Below, one piece after another: positions 41,353 to 47,971 of a stretch of DNA of 47,971 bases (positions are counted from its first letter, which is position 1; each line of letters begins with the position of its first letter). The translations under genes and the position numbers were made by a program. The stretch lies in the NCBI GenBank assembly GCA_029858285.1, contig JAOUFN010000019.1:1-47971 (forward strand). The letters are read 5' to 3'. The notes under the pieces are model-generated. The model did no database searches, was not told the DNA's origin, and worked only from the letters and a program-made list of their open reading frames with translations. The stretch comes from Nitrospirota bacterium. Its GTDB lineage: Bacteria; Nitrospirota; JACRHL01.

Positions 41353-41428
<76 letters not shown>

Positions 41429-41738: not shown

Positions 41739-42770
41739 ATGTCCGGGCGCCCGCCCGGCAAGAAGGGGGACGCGGTGGAAGCCGGCTTGCGCATCATCCG
41801 GCTGCACCAGACTTTGTGCAGCCACCGCCACCCGGTCCCGCGCCGGGTCATCGAGGAGCGCCTGGAGTGCTCCCGCGCCACCGCCATGCGCGTGCTGTCC
41901 ACCTTGCGTGGCATCACCGGTGACCCCATCCCCTGGCACGCGGAGGCAGGTGGGTACGCCTACGAGAGCCCGGCGTTGCGGACGGGAGACATCCCCTATC
42001 TGTGGTTTGGCCAGGATGAGCTGCTCGCGCTTCTGGCCATTCGGCACTATCTGGAACAGTTGGGTCCGGGTCTGCTGGGGCCGGCCCTGGCGCCCCTGGC
42101 CGAGCGGACCCGGGAACTGCTGCGGCTGAACGGGGCGTCGGTGCCGGACGTGGCGCGCCGTGTCCGGCTGGTGCCCGTGGCCACACGCAGCGGCAAGGTC
42201 ACGCGGTTTCCCGCGTGTGTGGAGGGCTGCCTGACGCAGCGGCGCATGGGCATCACCTATCAGGCCAGGGGCAGTGGTCAAACCACCGGGCGAGAGGTGT
42301 CTCCGCAGTTCCTGGTGCATTACCGCGACAACTGGTACCTGATTGCCTTCTGCCACCTGCGGAGCGCGCTGCGCAGCTTTGCCGTGGAGTGCATCACCGC
42401 CGCCAAGGTGCAGGACACGGCGGCGCACGAGGTGGACATGGCGGAACTGGACGCATTCCTCGCCGCAGGGTACGGCATTTTTGCGGGCCCGGTGCGGGAA
42501 ACGGCGGTGCTGCGTTTCAGCGCGGAGCGGGCGCGGTGGGTGGCGGACGAGCGCTGGCACCCGGAGCAGCGGGGCCATCTGCTGCCGGACGGGAGCTACG
42601 AGCTGTCAGTGCCCTACGCCGACGCCACGGAGTTGCTGATGGACATCCTGCGCCACGGCCCCGAGGTGGAGGTGCTGGCCCCACCTGCCCTGCGTGCGGC
42701 CGCTGAAAAGGCGCTGCGGGAGGCGCTTCAGAGGTACGTTGTTGCTATTGTCTCTCCAAATAGCCATTAA
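41739..42770 (+). CDS. WYL-domain transcriptional regulator
   Basis: Predicted DNA-binding regulator. The N-terminus (about residues 14-60) looks like a winged helix-turn-helix: AGLRIIRLHQTL, RRVIEERLECSRATAMRVLSTL. The central WYL domain is seen in VHYRDNWYLIAFCHLRSALRSFAVECI (about residues 190-216), which has the family tripeptide WYL itself. The C-terminal part is the WCX-type extension. 343 residues. It stands at the head of the type I-C Cas locus, where WYL proteins are often found as regulators or ligand sensors. Its last codons overlap the target site described at 42739-42775. No ribosome-binding site is obvious at the chosen ATG. Confidence 0.87.
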   Translation: MSGRPPGKKGDAVEAGLRIIRLHQTLCSHRHPVPRRVIEERLECSRATAMRVLSTLRGITGDPIPWHAEAGGYAYESPALRTGDIPYLWFGQDELLALLAIRHYLEQLGPGLLGPALAPLAERTRELLRLNGASVPDVARRVRLVPVATRSGKVTRFPACVEGCLTQRRMGITYQARGSGQTTGREVSPQFLVHYRDNWYLIAFCHLRSALRSFAVECITAAKVQDTAAHEVDMAELDAFLAAGYGIFAGPVRETAVLRFSAERARWVADERWHPEQRGHLLPDGSYELSVPYADATELLMDILRHGPEVEVLAPPALRAAAEKALREALQRYVVAIVSPNSH

Positions 42771-42775
42771 CTGAA
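42739..42775 (-). promoter_or_regulatory. Protospacer-like target site with TTC PAM next to a -10 element
   Basis: Read on the minus strand from 42775: TTC (42775-42773), then AGTTAATGGCTATTTGG (42772-42756). The first 17 nt of the guide at 42848-42864 read AGTCAATGGCTATTTGG, identical but for position 4. TTC is the established type I-C PAM, and it is immediately 5' of guide position 1. Beyond position 17 pairing is lost (by hand, 4 of 17 identical). The site overlaps the 3' end of the WYL gene and touches the -10 at 42776, so Cascade bound here would cover the -35 region. Confidence 0.75.
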
Positions 42776-42781
42776 TATAAC
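42753..42781 (+). promoter_or_regulatory. Putative promoter of the crRNA-like gene
   Basis: A -10-like TATAAC lies at 42776-42781 in a locally AT-rich stretch, with a start expected near 42788. No good -35 is present: TCTCCA at 17 nt spacing is weak. Activation by the WYL protein is possible but not shown. Confidence 0.45.
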
Positions 42782-42805
42782 GAATGCGGTACGCTGTGCC
42801 CGTTG

Positions 42806-42881
42806 GTCGTTGCCTTTCCGAGTAGGACAGGTGGCGTGGATTGAAACAGTCAATGGCTATTTGGGACTTGAAGAGTTGGTT
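42806..42881 (+). CRISPR. Degenerate type I-C repeat plus single 34-nt spacer
   Basis: The unit begins GTCG (42806-42809) and ends GCGTGGATTGAAAC (42834-42847), the two ends usual for type I-C repeats. The middle is not the usual 32-nt form: it is 42 nt long with a weak, G-T-rich stem. There is only one spacer and no second repeat; a terminator replaces it. It is therefore a mini-CRISPR-like element, not an array. The true array was not found in the window. Confidence 0.7.
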
Positions 42882-42917
42882 GCCTCCTCCTCTTTTTCCG
42901 AGAGGGGGAGGCTTTTT
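42882..42917 (+). terminator. Intrinsic terminator of the crRNA-like gene
   Basis: Stem GCCTCCTCCTCT (42882-42893) and AGAGGGGGAGGC (42901-42912), with one G-T pair and the loop TTTTCCG, followed by TTTTT (42913-42917). It starts immediately after the guide. Confidence 0.92.
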
Positions 42918-42962
42918 CCTGTTGCCGCACCTCCAGGTCCCCCCGCAGGAAAGGCCGAGGCC

Positions 42963-43022
42963 ATGAAGCGTGCCGACAAAATCGCGAATCACGCCATGAC
43001 TGTATTTGCGGGTGCTGCATGA
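42963..43022 (+). CDS. Short ORF (19 codons), possible leader peptide
   Basis: MKRADKIANHAMTVFAGAA, preceded by GGAAAGG at loose spacing. Its stop overlaps the start of the next ORF (ATGA), the junction used by most gene pairs in this genome. It might be a coupled leader. It has no recognised relatives, and the frame is also open upstream without a clear start, so support is weak. Confidence 0.3.
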   Translation: MKRADKIANHAMTVFAGAA

Positions 43023-43165
43023 GTGACGAAGTTCGACTCAGGATCATGTGGGGAAATGAACTTGTGATCCCGTCCCACCTGGCCAAACCCGCGGTTTTCT
43101 GTATTTCGGGTGCGATCGTGATTCTGGCTCTGGTCCTCCTGATTCGTGCAGTCCGGTGGTGGTGA
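43019..43165 (+). CDS. 48-residue single-pass membrane peptide
   Basis: From the ATG at 43019: a polar, mixed-charge N-terminus (MSDEVRLRIMWGNEL), then a hydrophobic segment AVFCISGAIVILALVLLI at about residues 25-42, then a basic aromatic tail RAVRWW. Not recognised. Translation would be coupled to the 19-codon ORF by ATGA. It lies between the crRNA-like gene and cas3. The size and shape recall type I toxins and small membrane stress peptides, so a toxin or accessory function in the CRISPR locus is possible; being a chance ORF is also possible. Confidence 0.45.
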   Translation: MSDEVRLRIMWGNELVIPSHLAKPAVFCISGAIVILALVLLIRAVRWW

Positions 43166-43174
43166 CCCGCTTCG

Positions 43175-43221
43175 GACCGGGGTTCTCCCAAAAATTGGGG
43201 GCCGGTCTCACGTGGTGAGAC
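43175..43221. promoter_or_regulatory. Pair of dyads upstream of cas3
   Basis: A long hairpin has outer arms GACCGG (43175-43180) and CCGGTC (43202-43207) and inner arms CCCAA and TTGGG. Overlapping it is the perfect dyad GTCTCAC-GTG-GTGAGAC at 43205-43221. No T-run follows, so these are not terminators of the standard type. The 17-bp dyad is a plausible operator for the WYL regulator or another repressor. Confidence 0.45.
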
Positions 43222-43287
43222 ACCTGTCGTGGCAGGATGGTCGCCGTTCCCGGTTCACCTCATTTGGTCTGATGGAAGGGGGCTCCC

Positions 43288-45654
43288 GTGGCCGACACAC
43301 CGTTTTCCGACCCCATTGCCCACGCCCGTCCCACCGGGGACGGGAAGTTTGAGCTTCACCTTCTGCCAGACCACCTGCGCAAGGTGGCCACGCTGGCGCG
43401 CGAGTTCGCCAAGGCGTTCGGGGGAGGGGATTGGGCCCATCTGGCTGGGCTGTGGCACGACCTGGGAAAATTCCGGCCGCGCTTTCAAAAATACATCCGG
43501 AACGCCACCGGCTTCGAGGCCGATGCTCACATCAAGGGGGAACTCGGCAGGGCGCCCCATTCCACCGCCGGGGCGTTGTTGGCCTGTGACCGGTTCGGCC
43601 CTGCCGGGCGAGTGCTGGCCTACCTGATCGCGGGCCATCATGCCGGGCTGTACGACTGGGACTCCGAAAACTCCAGCCTGCGATCGCGGCTCAATCTTCA
43701 GGACAGCCGCGATGAACTGCGCGAGGCCGTGGCGGTCGCACCGCCCGCCGAGATTCTTGACCACGGCGCGTTCGCACCCGATCTCGGGGCCGTTCCGGGC
43801 GGGCTCAATGGCTTTTCCATGTGGGTGCGAATGCTGTTTTCGTGCCTGGTGGACGCCGATTTTCTGGATACCGAATCCTTCATGGACCCGGACAAATCGG
43901 GTCGCCGCGAGGGGTGGCCGGAAATCCGCGAATTGCTTGCGCACTTCGACCGTCATATGTCGTCGCTGGCGGACAGTCTGGAGGACAAGGCCGATCCGAC
44001 CCCGGTGAACCGCCTGCGCGCCGACGTGCTGCGCCAGTGCCGGGAGAAGGCGGCACAAGCTCCCGGCCTGTTCTCGCTGGATGTGCCGACCGGCGGCGGC
44101 AAGACGCTCTCCAGCATGGCCTTTGCCCTGGAGCACGCGAAGCAGCACGGGAAACAGCGGGTCATCTACGTCATTCCCTATACCAGCATCATCGAACAGA
44201 CCGCCGACGTCTTCCGGAAAATTTTCGGCGACGCGGTGATCGAGCACCACAGCAACGCCGAGACCGAGCCTGGCGGGGAAACCCACAAAAGCCGCCTGGC
44301 GTGCGAAAATTGGGACGCCCCCGTCGTCGTCACCACCAATGTCCAGTTCTTCGAGTCGCTGTTTGCCGCTCGTACCAGCCGGGTTCGCAAGCTGCACAAC
44401 ATCGTGAACAGCGTGGTGGTGCTGGACGAGGCGCAACTCCTGCCTCCGGAGTTTCTGCAACCGATCCTGGATGCGCTCAACCTGCTCACCCTGCACTACG
44501 GCGTGACCGTGGTGCTGTGTACCGCCACCCAGCCAGCGTTGGCCACGCAGCGGTATTTTGATCGCGGGATGCGGGGTTTGGATGGCGTTCGGGAGATCAT
44601 TTCTGATCCGGAGGCTCTCCACCGCGACCTGGACCGGGTTACGGTGCGCCTGCCCGCCGACTGGAATGCCCCTGTTGCCTGGGATGCTTTGGCCGGGGAA
44701 CTGGCTGCACACCCTAGCGTGCTCACCATCGTCAACCAGCGCGAGCATGCACGGGAGCTGCACCACCTGATGCCCGCGGGCACCCTGCATCTGTCCGCCC
44801 TGATGTGCGGCGCCCACCGCAAGCACGTTATTGACCGGATCAAGGAGCGGTTGAGAGAGGGCCAGCCCACCCGTGTGGTCAGTACCCAACTGGTGGAAGC
44901 AGGGGTGGACCTGGATTTCCCCGTGGTGTACCGGGCAGTGGCCGGGCTGGATTCCATCGCCCAAGCGGCGGGGCGCTGCAACCGGGAGGGGCGACTGGAA
45001 CGCGGTGAGGTGGTGGTATTCGTGCCTCCCCAATCGGATCCGTCCGGCCTTTTGCGCAAGGGCGCGGATTCCTGCAAGAAGGTGCTGCACGACTACTCCG
45101 GAAACCCGCTGAGTCGGGAGAGGTTCTCGGATTACTTCAGGCATTTCTACCACGCCTGTAATCTGGATAAACACAAAATCTGCCACCTGCTCAAGGTTGA
45201 TGGTGACAGCCTCGCCGTGAACTTCCGCACCGCCGCAGGGAACTTCCGGCTCATCCAGGACGAGGACCAGGTGAGCGTCATCGTTCTTTATCGTGGCCCG
45301 AATGGCGACGACAACACCGTGGACGGGCTGATCGGCCAGCTTGGCAAAAGTGGACCGGGGGGCGGTCCACAGCGCTGGCTGATGCGCAAACTCCAGCGCT
45401 ACACGGTCAGCGTGCCGCGCCGCGACGCCGCAAGGCTGTTGGCCCAGGGTGACCTGGAAGAACCATCGCGTACACGCGACGCCCCTTCGCGCGCATCCGC
45501 CGCAAGGCTGTTGGCCCAGGGTGACCTGGAAAAACCCGTGTCCGGCCTGTTCGTGCAAAAGAACGACACGCTCTACGACGCCACGCTCGGTCTGATCACC
45601 GACGGCGCCCCGCCCCCATCCCGCAAGCCTCGTCACATAAGGGAGGAACCATGA
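43288..45654 (+). CDS. cas3: CRISPR-associated helicase/nuclease Cas3 (type I-C)
   Basis: Nuclease-helicase that degrades DNA opened by Cascade. The HD nuclease is N-terminal: LWHDLGKF (H57, D58), APHSTAGAL (H91) and GHHAG (H117, H118). The helicase has Walker A PTGGGKT (267-273), DEAQLLPPEF (DEAQ at 380-383), TATQ, TQLVEAGVDLDFPV, and QAAGRCNREG (559-568). 788 residues. The GTG at 43288 follows GGAAGGGGG. An exact 33-nt direct repeat inside the gene duplicates AARLLAQGDLE (residues 714-724 and 738-748). Its stop overlaps cas5c (ATGA). All catalytic motifs look intact. Confidence 0.96.
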   Translation: MADTPFSDPIAHARPTGDGKFELHLLPDHLRKVATLAREFAKAFGGGDWAHLAGLWHDLGKFRPRFQKYIRNATGFEADAHIKGELGRAPHSTAGALLACDRFGPAGRVLAYLIAGHHAGLYDWDSENSSLRSRLNLQDSRDELREAVAVAPPAEILDHGAFAPDLGAVPGGLNGFSMWVRMLFSCLVDADFLDTESFMDPDKSGRREGWPEIRELLAHFDRHMSSLADSLEDKADPTPVNRLRADVLRQCREKAAQAPGLFSLDVPTGGGKTLSSMAFALEHAKQHGKQRVIYVIPYTSIIEQTADVFRKIFGDAVIEHHSNAETEPGGETHKSRLACENWDAPVVVTTNVQFFESLFAARTSRVRKLHNIVNSVVVLDEAQLLPPEFLQPILDALNLLTLHYGVTVVLCTATQPALATQRYFDRGMRGLDGVREIISDPEALHRDLDRVTVRLPADWNAPVAWDALAGELAAHPSVLTIVNQREHARELHHLMPAGTLHLSALMCGAHRKHVIDRIKERLREGQPTRVVSTQLVEAGVDLDFPVVYRAVAGLDSIAQAAGRCNREGRLERGEVVVFVPPQSDPSGLLRKGADSCKKVLHDYSGNPLSRERFSDYFRHFYHACNLDKHKICHLLKVDGDSLAVNFRTAAGNFRLIQDEDQVSVIVLYRGPNGDDNTVDGLIGQLGKSGPGGGPQRWLMRKLQRYTVSVPRRDAARLLAQGDLEEPSRTRDAPSRASAARLLAQGDLEKPVSGLFVQKNDTLYDATLGLITDGAPPPSRKPRHIREEP
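45427..45459 (+). repeat. 33-nt direct repeat in cas3, copy 1
   Basis: Identical to 45499-45531; the offset of 72 bp keeps the frame. The DNA between the copies includes the dyad CGCGT-AC-ACGCG (45467-45478). Confidence 0.85.
45499..45531 (+). repeat. 33-nt direct repeat in cas3, copy 2
   Basis: Second exact copy, encoding AARLLAQGDLE again. The added 24 codons lie in the C-terminal part, after the helicase motifs. Confidence 0.85.
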
Positions 45655-46316
45655 AAACCTATTGTCTTGAGCTTTCCGGCGACTTCGCCTGCTTCACCCG
45701 CCCGGAGATGAAGGTGGAACGGGTGAGTTACGACGTGATGACCCCCTCCGCCGCCCGCGCCTGTTTCGAGGCGGTTCTCTGGAAGCCCGCGATCCGATGG
45801 CATGTCCGCAAGATCGAGGTGTTGAACCCCGTCCGCTGGATCAACCTGCGGCGCAATGAGGTGGCCAGCGTGGTTTCCTCGCGCAACGTGACCACTGCCA
45901 TGAAGTCCGGCACGGGTCACCTGGCGCTCTACATCGAGGACGACCGCCAGCAGCGGGCCGGGCTGTTCCTGCGCGACGTGGCCTACCGTGTCCATGCCGA
46001 CCTGGAGTTCAAGCCCGGCGCCGACCCCGACGGCTCGCCCACAAAATATCAGGAGATGTTCGAGCGCCGCGCCCGCAAGGGGCAATGCGTGAACCAGCCC
46101 TACCTGGGCTGCCGGGAGTTTTCCGCCCGGTTCCGGCTGATCGAGGAACTGGCCGCCGAGTCACCCCCCATCGGGGAAAACCGCGACCTGGGTTTCATGC
46201 TGTACGACCTGGATTTCACCCACCCGGCCGACCCCGCGCCGCGCTTCTTCCGTGCCCGGATGGAAAATGGCGTGGTCCACGTACCGGCCTGGGACAGCGA
46301 GGAGGTACGGGGATGA
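45651..46316 (+). CDS. cas5c: CRISPR-associated protein Cas5c (Cas5d)
   Basis: In type I-C, Cas5c replaces Cas6: it cuts the pre-crRNA at the base of the repeat hairpin and then stays in Cascade. The N-terminus KTYCLELSGDFACFTRPEMKVERVSYDVMTPSAARACFEAVLWKP (landmarks only: GDFACFTRPE, MTPSAAR, WKPAIRWHV) is the family's most typical region. Length 221 is normal. The ATG overlaps the cas3 stop by 4 bp. It is the processing enzyme that would have to recognise the hairpin of the crRNA-like gene. Confidence 0.95.
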   Translation: MKTYCLELSGDFACFTRPEMKVERVSYDVMTPSAARACFEAVLWKPAIRWHVRKIEVLNPVRWINLRRNEVASVVSSRNVTTAMKSGTGHLALYIEDDRQQRAGLFLRDVAYRVHADLEFKPGADPDGSPTKYQEMFERRARKGQCVNQPYLGCREFSARFRLIEELAAESPPIGENRDLGFMLYDLDFTHPADPAPRFFRARMENGVVHVPAWDSEEVRG

Positions 46317-47971
46317 TCCTGCAAGCACTCAACGACTATTACTGGCGCAAGCAGCGCTCCACCGACCCGAACGACCATCTGCCCGACTTCGGCCTGGAAG
46401 GGAAGGAGATCCCGTTCATCATCGAAATTGATGCCGAGGGGAGGCTCATCAACCTGTCGGATACGCGGTCCGGCGAGGGCAAGAAGAAGACCGGGCAACG
46501 GTTCCGGGTGCCCCAGGGGGTGAAAAAAACCTCCGGCGTGGCCGCCGACCTGCTGTGGGGCACCGCCGAATACGTGCTGGGCGTGGACACCCGTGGCAAG
46601 CCCGAGCGGGTGGTGGAACAGCACGCCGCGTTCCGGGCGCGCATTGAGGCACTGCCGGAGGCGGTGCGGCAGGATGCCGGGGTGCGCGCCGTTTTGTCGT
46701 TCCTCGACAACCCTGACCAAGGAGCGCTGGAAGCCATGCCGGGCTGGGCCGACGTTCTGGCCAGCAATCCCCTGATGACCTTCCGCCTGCACGGTGACCT
46801 GGATCTGGTTTGCCAGCGGCCCGCTGTGGTCGCCGCAGCGCAGGCAACGGCGGGAGAGGACAGGCCGGACGGCATCTGTCTGGTCAGCGGGCAGGCTGCC
46901 ACCGTCGAGCGCCTGCACTCCGCCATCAAGGGGGTGTGGGGGGCGCAAACCTCCGGCGCCAACGTCGTCTCGTTCAATCTGGACGCCTTCCGTTCCTACG
47001 GCAAGGAGCAGGGCGCCAACGCCCCCGTGGGCAAGCCTGCGGTCTTCGCCTACACCACGGCCCTCAACCACCTGCTGGCCAAGGATTCCCGCCAACGCAT
47101 TCAGGTGGGCGACGCCTCCACGGTGTTCTGGGCCGAGCAGCGCCACGAACTGGAAACCGCCCTGTTCGACCTGTTCGGGGAGCCGAAAAAAGACGATCCG
47201 GACCGGGGCACGGACGCCCTCAGGGCCCTCTATCGTGCCGTGGAGTCGGGGCGATTCGCCGAAGGCGGAGCGGATACCCGCTTCCACGTGCTGGGGTTGG
47301 CCCCCAACGCGGGGCGCATCGCCATCCGGTTCTGGGAGACCGCCCCCGCCATGGAACTGGCCCGGCGCATCAAGCAACACTTCGAGGACATCCAGGTGGC
47401 CCGCGCCCCCCATGATCCGGAGCGCCTGCCGCTGTTCCGGCTGCTCACAGCCATTTCCGCGCAGGGCAAGGCCGACAACATTCCGCCCAATCTGGGCGGC
47501 GAGGTGATGCGCGCCATCCTGGAGGGCCTGCCGTACCCGGTAACGCTGCTCAACCTGGCCGTGCAGCGCTGCCGGGCGGAGCAGAAACCCACCTATGCCC
47601 GTGCGGCAGCCATCAAGGCGTGCCTGAACCGCGCCATCCGTCGAGCCAATCCACATGATTCACACCCCGAGAAGGAGTTCACACCCATGCTCGACCCATC
47701 CAACCTCAACCCCGCCTATCGCCTGGGACGGCTGTTCGCCGTGCTGGAAAAGACCCAGGAGGAGGCCAGCCCCGGACTGAACGCCACCATCCGCGACCGC
47801 TACTATGGGGCCGCCTCCAGCACCCCGGTGGCGGTGTTCACCACGCTGCTGCGGCTCAAGAATCACCACCTGGGCAAGCTGCACCGGGGCCGGGCCGTGA
47901 ATATAGAAAAGCTCATCGGCGAGATCATGGATGGTCTGGCCGACTTTCCGCGCCAACTGGCCCTGCCGGAC
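46313..47971 (+). CDS. cas8c: CRISPR-associated protein Cas8c (Csd1), partial
   Basis: Large subunit of type I-C Cascade, which reads the PAM. The ATG at 46313 overlaps the cas5c stop (ATGA) and the frame is open to the window edge, 553 codons so far. The start MILQALNDYYWR and GVKKTSGVAADLLWGTAEYVLG, IRFWE and GLAPNAGRIAIR are typical of Csd1. The full protein is expected to be near 570-620 residues, so only its end is missing. cas7 should follow. Confidence 0.94.
   Translation, partial: MILQALNDYYWRKQRSTDPNDHLPDFGLEGKEIPFIIEIDAEGRLINLSDTRSGEGKKKTGQRFRVPQGVKKTSGVAADLLWGTAEYVLGVDTRGKPERVVEQHAAFRARIEALPEAVRQDAGVRAVLSFLDNPDQGALEAMPGWADVLASNPLMTFRLHGDLDLVCQRPAVVAAAQATAGEDRPDGICLVSGQAATVERLHSAIKGVWGAQTSGANVVSFNLDAFRSYGKEQGANAPVGKPAVFAYTTALNHLLAKDSRQRIQVGDASTVFWAEQRHELETALFDLFGEPKKDDPDRGTDALRALYRAVESGRFAEGGADTRFHVLGLAPNAGRIAIRFWETAPAMELARRIKQHFEDIQVARAPHDPERLPLFRLLTAISAQGKADNIPPNLGGEVMRAILEGLPYPVTLLNLAVQRCRAEQKPTYARAAAIKACLNRAIRRANPHDSHPEKEFTPMLDPSNLNPAYRLGRLFAVLEKTQEEASPGLNATIRDRYYGAASSTPVAVFTTLLRLKNHHLGKLHRGRAVNIEKLIGEIMDGLADFPRQLALPD

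Follow-up and report, generated by a model that had tools for sequence, protein, structure and literature searches.

The window analyzed here is the whole of contig JAOUFN010000019.1 (47,971 nucleotides (nt)) from the Nitrospirota bacterium assembly GCA_029858285.1. It carries genes of a type I-C CRISPR (clustered regularly interspaced short palindromic repeats) system, and between the gene of a WYL transcriptional regulator and cas3 lies a short element with the layout of a stand-alone mini-CRISPR, in which a degenerate repeat is followed by one spacer-like guide and an intrinsic terminator. By its anatomy this element appears to be a minimal CRISPR RNA (crRNA) gene of the broad class of Cascade-guided repressors (CreA/CreR). 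The first half of the guide matches a promoter-like site immediately upstream. Cascade carrying the processed guide probably binds at this site by way of a protospacer-adjacent motif (PAM) and partial pairing, repressing the promoter. The features of the element are as follows (bp, base pairs).

42739–42772, minus strand: protospacer-like target identified by sequence match; its PAM-proximal 17 nt (42756–42772) match the guide at 16 of 17 positions
42773–42775, minus strand: PAM 5'-TTC-3' (GAA on the plus strand), read from the sequence
42753–42781, plus strand: promoter-like site TCTCCA-17-TATAAC, with the overlapping alternative TTAACT (42767)-17-TACGCT (42790); by consensus scoring only
42808–42836, plus strand: hairpin of the degenerate first repeat (psiR1), from RNA folding and similarity to the array repeat
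42837–42847, plus strand: 11-nt crRNA-like 5' handle TGGATTGAAAC (handle of the array repeat: CGGATTGAAAC)
42848–42881, plus strand: 34-nt spacer-like guide (psiS)
42882–42917, plus strand: intrinsic terminator with a 13-bp stem and U5, located where the second repeat would be; possibly a decayed psiR2

The guide matches a nearby site next to a TTC PAM

Positions 42848–42864 of the guide (AGTCAATGGCTATTTGG) are identical to minus-strand positions 42772–42756 (AGTTAATGGCTATTTGG) at 16 of 17 bases, starting at guide position 1. The sole mismatch is at position 4, where a guide C stands opposite A, and positions 5–17 form a run of 13 consecutive identities. Past position 17, comparison of the two 34-mers shows agreement at 4 of the 17 remaining positions, which is chance level. 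The initial annotation had described this 13-base run, its register at guide position 1, the TTC in front of the target, and a match that stops near the middle of the guide, and each of these is found at the coordinates it claimed, with GAA at plus-strand 42773–42775 and a match that stops at position 17 of the 34-nt guide. The element therefore shows the partial, PAM-proximal match expected of the CreA/CreR class, at a nearby target flanked by the correct PAM. The pair is also recovered by an unbiased repeat search, as inverted repeat I8 (18 nt, 94% complementarity).

The guide-target pattern is real and not a product of chance. Sites with up to three mismatches to the guide are expected 0.07 times in the shuffled window and observed twice, as the guide itself and the target. 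When a mock guide was taken from every position of the 48-kb window, no pair other than guide and target gave an inverted match of 16/17 or better within 300 nt together with a TTC PAM. Across the whole 2.56-Mb genome there is no additional site with fewer than three mismatches, and the three sites with exactly three are at control level in number and all lack a TTC PAM. A chance origin of the match was rejected on these shuffled-window, genome-wide, and mock-guide counts. No second copy of the guide sequence besides the target was found in the window. A search for further CreA-style minimal targets (positions 1–5 and 7–11) gave a best site of only 8/10, at 47778, and none at the palindrome associated with the WYL regulator, which is described below.

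The pseudo-repeat retains the hairpin and handle of the type I-C repeat

RNA folding of 42808–42847 gives a hairpin of 8 bp and 3 bp with one mismatch between them, followed by exactly 11 nt, TGGATTGAAAC. The array repeat of the host genome has the same layout, with its hairpin followed by CGGATTGAAAC, and the two handles are identical at 10 of 11 bases. The score of the alignment between pseudo-repeat and array repeat was matched by only 1–2 of 2000 shuffles. As in the CreA/CreR class, the degenerate repeat has kept the hairpin and handle of the co-resident system.

The terminator begins at 42882, straight after the 34-nt spacer, which is the expected start of a second repeat, and its hairpin matches psiR1 at 13 of 17 positions (14 of 1000 shuffles were equally good). 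Because the terminator starts in the place of the second repeat and resembles psiR1, the element can be read with moderate confidence as a two-repeat mini-array in which the second repeat decayed into a terminator, a route that has been proposed for creA genes (PMC8501985). Rfam gave a single match, far below its cut-off and judged to be chance.

The segment 42831–42847 of the pseudo-repeat (GGCGTGGATTGAAAC) is closer to common type I-C repeats elsewhere than to the array repeat of its own genome (GGGTGCGGATTGAAAC), hinting that it derived from another I-C lineage. In a DNA search of 396 genomes with the element, the pseudo-repeat segment matched ordinary type I-C arrays of other genomes, with no second copy of the element.

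The element lies in a probable insert between a WYL regulator and its putative operator

The flanks of the element contain the following features (ORF, open reading frame; aa, amino acids).

41739–42770, plus strand: helix-turn-helix (HTH)-WYL-WCX transcriptional regulator, whose final codons run through the target
42963–43022, plus strand: 19-aa ORF with an ATGA overlap with the next ORF
43019–43165, plus strand: 48-aa ORF, a toxin candidate, with a single strong transmembrane-like segment
43205–43221, no strand assigned: palindrome GTCTCACGTGGTGAGAC, putative WYL operator at the likely cas3 promoter

In four related WYL genes from the same phylum, a palindrome with a CTCAYGYKKTGAG-like core is located 8–13 bp past the stop codon (at about 5139 in locus L054, about 2916 in L055, 71–83 in L056, and 5626–5638 in L057), with the copy in genome G009 deviating by one base. 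The gene that follows the WYL gene and palindrome is a type I-C cas3 in genome G072, whereas in G016 a Pycsar cyclase and effector are found downstream. Position and conservation point to the palindrome as the operator of a WYL family preceding type I-C or Pycsar operons, and the comparison would give a direct handle on the control of such loci by this regulator family.

In the window the palindrome is 437 bp past the WYL stop codon and about 67 bp before cas3. Given this distance, compared with 8–13 bp in the four relatives, the most economical interpretation is the insertion of a ∼430-bp module, comprising the target and promoter, the guide, the terminator, and the two small ORFs, between the WYL regulator and its operator. 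The guide would therefore target the promoter of its own gene, and cas3 probably has a different promoter, located at the WYL palindrome. The C terminus of the WYL protein (VVAIVSPNSH), which is coded by the target region, differs from that of its relatives.

Predicted repression of the guide promoter

A promoter at the target is plausible. The TATAAC at 42776–42781 directly adjoins the PAM complement, and the −35 element paired with it, TCTCCA, is weak. With a weight matrix applied to the plus strand before cas3, the best sites are at the target, with scores of 5.1–6.6, compared with 3.2 or less for 42918–43288. No site passes a strict promoter scan.

Type I-C is among the commonest CRISPR subtypes and has a minimal Cascade, with Cas5c as the processing enzyme. 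For the element, we infer transcription, processing, binding, repression, and the choice of a useful downstream product. A short RNA would be transcribed from about 42788 to 42917 and cleaved by Cas5c on the 3' side of the hairpin, leaving a guide with an 11-nt handle that would load type I-C Cascade. The complex would read the TTC PAM at 42773–42775 and pair with no more than the first 17 nt of the target, thereby covering the −35/−10 region of the guide gene's own promoter. With the R-loop incomplete, RNA polymerase would be blocked while efficient cleavage by Cas3 would not be triggered. Repression would scale with free Cascade and be lifted once Cascade becomes scarce, titrated, or blocked. 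The output of such repression could be the guide alone, the cas genes reached through terminator read-through, or the 48-aa peptide.

The initial annotation had proposed a Cascade guide acting on a promoter and, from this, a feedback sensor of Cascade supply. The first proposal is supported, with a promoter-like site as the target, by the handle register, hairpin, PAM, half match, and terminator. For the second, a partial PAM-proximal guide at a promoter-like site is indeed present, but the target is the guide's own promoter and not clearly a cas promoter. An action on the cas genes does not necessarily follow: the WYL palindrome points to a probable cas3 promoter of its own some 430 bp farther downstream, beyond a strong terminator. 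Any effect on the cas genes would require transcription past this terminator, or else the 48-aa ORF may be the product under control.

Several observations weigh against repression by the guide. The promoter at the target is weak by consensus. The seed pairing at positions 1–5 and 7–11 is interrupted by the mismatch at position 4, a position that is required in the CreA RNAs that have been tested. For CreA of Halobacterium hubeiense (type I-B), any change at positions 1–5 or 7–11 cut transformation about 10^4-fold, and the effect of promoter changes at positions 4 and 10 could be undone by altering the guide to match (PMC8501985). For CreA of Acinetobacter (type I-F), each of positions 2–5, 7–9, and 13–17 was essential (PMC10097628). 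The view that this mismatch weakens the case "somewhat" was thus an understatement, as neither of the two tested CreA systems kept its function once position 4 was mutated. Because those assays scored a toxin that must be almost fully repressed, the mismatch may be tolerable for a weaker regulator. Finally, no such element is present next to the nearest cas3 relative (73% identity, genome G001) or in the other I-C leaders scanned in the same phylum, in genome contigs, and in plasmids.

Comparison with known Cascade-guided elements

Published CreA genes have a TTC PAM at a core promoter, pairing limited to the PAM-proximal part, and a one-psiR form that ends in a terminator (PMC8501985). The present element resembles CreA of the CreTA modules of Haloarcula hispanica and H. 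hubeiense (I-B) and Acinetobacter (I-F) in its degenerate repeat, its PAM-proximal pairing at a nearby promoter region, and its subtype-correct PAM, as well as in the one-psiR form with terminator, the position in or beside a cas operon, and the ∼400-bp insert (I-F). It differs from them in belonging to type I-C, in its Cas5c-type 11-nt handle, and in the mismatch at position 4. Unlike in CreTA, no creT toxin RNA gene lies between promoter and guide, and a possible peptide gene instead follows the terminator. Only about 20 nt separate the predicted transcription start from the hairpin, and by inspection there is no CreT-like mini-ORF with a ribosome-binding site between promoter and hairpin and no ORF with an evident ribosome-binding site on the divergent side of the promoter.

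Liu et al. (2023) reportedly described CreR in types I-B, I-E, and V-A. The element shares with CreR a crRNA-like RNA upstream of cas genes, the absence of a toxin between promoter and guide, and a partial promoter match (CreR is reviewed in PMC12737573). In contrast to CreR, whose target is in the cas-operon promoter, the target here appears to be the guide's own promoter; it lies upstream of both the guide and cas3, with the terminator and the separate WYL-associated palindrome between it and cas3.

The Racr solitary repeat units of phages likewise have a single repeat behind a promoter, but they are virus-encoded and inhibit Cas assembly, whereas the element here is in a cas locus and has a matched guide (PMC10651486). 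As in CrePA, which combines the CreP protein toxin with CreA, the guide may silence an adjacent protein-coding gene. CreP is typically a KilA-N protein, however, and no such toxin gene is under the targeted promoter; the 48-aa hydrophobic ORF is unrelated, has no Pfam match, and lies behind the terminator. We found no worked-out element of this kind in type I-C in the papers searched; the survey of Shmakov et al. (2023) is outside this comparison, and no priority is claimed. That survey, in Nucleic Acids Research, reportedly covers stand-alone crRNA-like elements, including mini-arrays that lie close to cas genes and partly match promoters. If the type I-C guide does target its own promoter, RNA-guided repression by Cascade would extend to the minimal I-C architecture, and the element would offer a small natural test bed for the extent of pairing that divides binding from cleavage.

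Alternative explanations

Two alternatives are special outcomes of the same repression. In the first, the model of the initial annotation, the element would be CreR proper, with the targeted promoter serving by read-through as a main cas-operon promoter, so that Cascade represses its own synthesis. CreR is known from other type I systems and from V-A, and the promoter-like scores given above are higher at the target than anywhere in 42918–43288. The cas genes of H. hispanica are driven by a promoter that lies upstream of them, in the creTA region (PMC9458426). Against these points stand the strong terminator at 42882–42917 and the palindrome conserved with the WYL genes, which lies about 67 bp upstream of cas3 and indicates a separate cas3 promoter. 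This outcome is possible, though doubtful.

The element may also be decaying. A relic of a once-functional CreA/CreR module, inactivated by the position-4 mismatch, would agree with the inactivating effect of position-4 changes in tested CreA RNAs and with the lack of conservation in relatives, but the handle, hairpin, 13-base run, PAM, and terminator are all intact, and a relic is rather unlikely.

The second special outcome of Cascade-guided repression is an addiction or alarm module of the CreTA/CrePA kind, in which the repressed promoter feeds the 19-aa/48-aa ORF pair by read-through of the terminator, and a toxic 48-aa membrane peptide is released when Cascade is lost or inhibited. The 48-aa ORF is inside the ∼430-bp insert and very hydrophobic, so a toxin of this type stays an alternative. 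Its hydropathy peak is 2.83, above a cut-off of 2.4 that is passed by only 1 of 185 window ORFs of 30–100 aa; the ATGA overlap would couple its translation to that of the 19-aa ORF, which is preceded by AGGAAAGG. Acinetobacter CreTA likewise occupies an insert of ∼400 bp in a cas operon, and cas3 has its own WYL-marked promoter region, so the regulated product may be something other than the cas genes. The terminator that separates the promoter from the 48-aa ORF argues against a simple toxin operon, however, and known creT genes are between promoter and creA or divergent, not behind creA. Searches of plasmids, phages, and 147 other genomes of the phylum also turned up no homologue of the 48-aa ORF. 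A module of this type is unlikely. A more elaborate form is quite improbable: a compact module guarded by type I-C Cascade, whose guide silences its own promoter and, by terminator read-through, a 48-aa membrane peptide toxin, inserted between defence regulator and operator so that WYL and Cascade occupancy both govern one locus. A regulated 48-aa peptide would, if true, be a new kind of CRISPR-guarded toxin.

The remaining explanations dispense with Cascade-guided repression. Read-through RNA from the WYL gene could pair both arms of the inverted match as a cis-acting hairpin that sequesters the element or controls cas3. RNA from 42720–42920 does fold with both arms paired (z = −5.0), but any inverted repeat would do so, and the PAM, the handle register, and the terminator behind the spacer would be left unexplained, making this reading very unlikely. 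A role of the inverted pair as an operator, bound by the WYL regulator or another DNA-binding protein and unrelated to CRISPR, is highly improbable. A regulator gene adjoins, and WYL regulators such as BrxR bind inverted repeats; however, a different, CTCAYGYKKTGAG-like palindrome is kept behind the WYL gene in all five compared loci, the window holds no additional copy of the guide sequence, and chance would not place one copy right after a repeat handle and the other right after TTC. As the conserved site is this other palindrome, the inverted pair was rejected as a conserved WYL operator. An ordinary solitary immune spacer of viral origin, which the handle and spacer length would fit, is extremely improbable given the half-length self match with a PAM close by, the terminator where a second repeat is expected, and the absence of an exact match to the guide centre in 2.9 million viral contigs.

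The host type I-C system and neighbouring features

The host genome contains cas3, cas5c, cas8c, cas7c, and an array repeat, and is thus a type I-C host. Cas3, cas5c, and most of cas8c are in the window.

43288–45654, plus strand: cas3 (HD nuclease-helicase), type I-C operon
45651–46316, plus strand: cas5c
46313–47971, plus strand: cas8c, truncated by the contig end

Cas7c and the array repeat are elsewhere, on contig C14 of the same genome (G000:C14), where cas7c is followed by downstream sequence ending in one array repeat, the first of an array. The cas7c gene (L032, 2235–3299) is one long open frame of 399 aa whose family match is in two separate pieces, which suggests an inserted protein segment. 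Near the 3' end of cas3, a 39-nt direct repeat (45426–45464 and 45498–45536, 97%) encodes the duplicated peptide AARLLAQGDLE.

The PADLOC Cas3c model PDLC01766 (1009 positions) matches the WYL protein at 41739–42770 with model positions 137–320, and matches the Cas3 of G072 with model positions 326–707. As the model spans both proteins, fused WYL-Cas3c proteins probably exist. Upstream of the WYL regulator, at 41353–41428, is a tRNA-Ala gene (anticodon CGC), a possible integration site for the defence locus.
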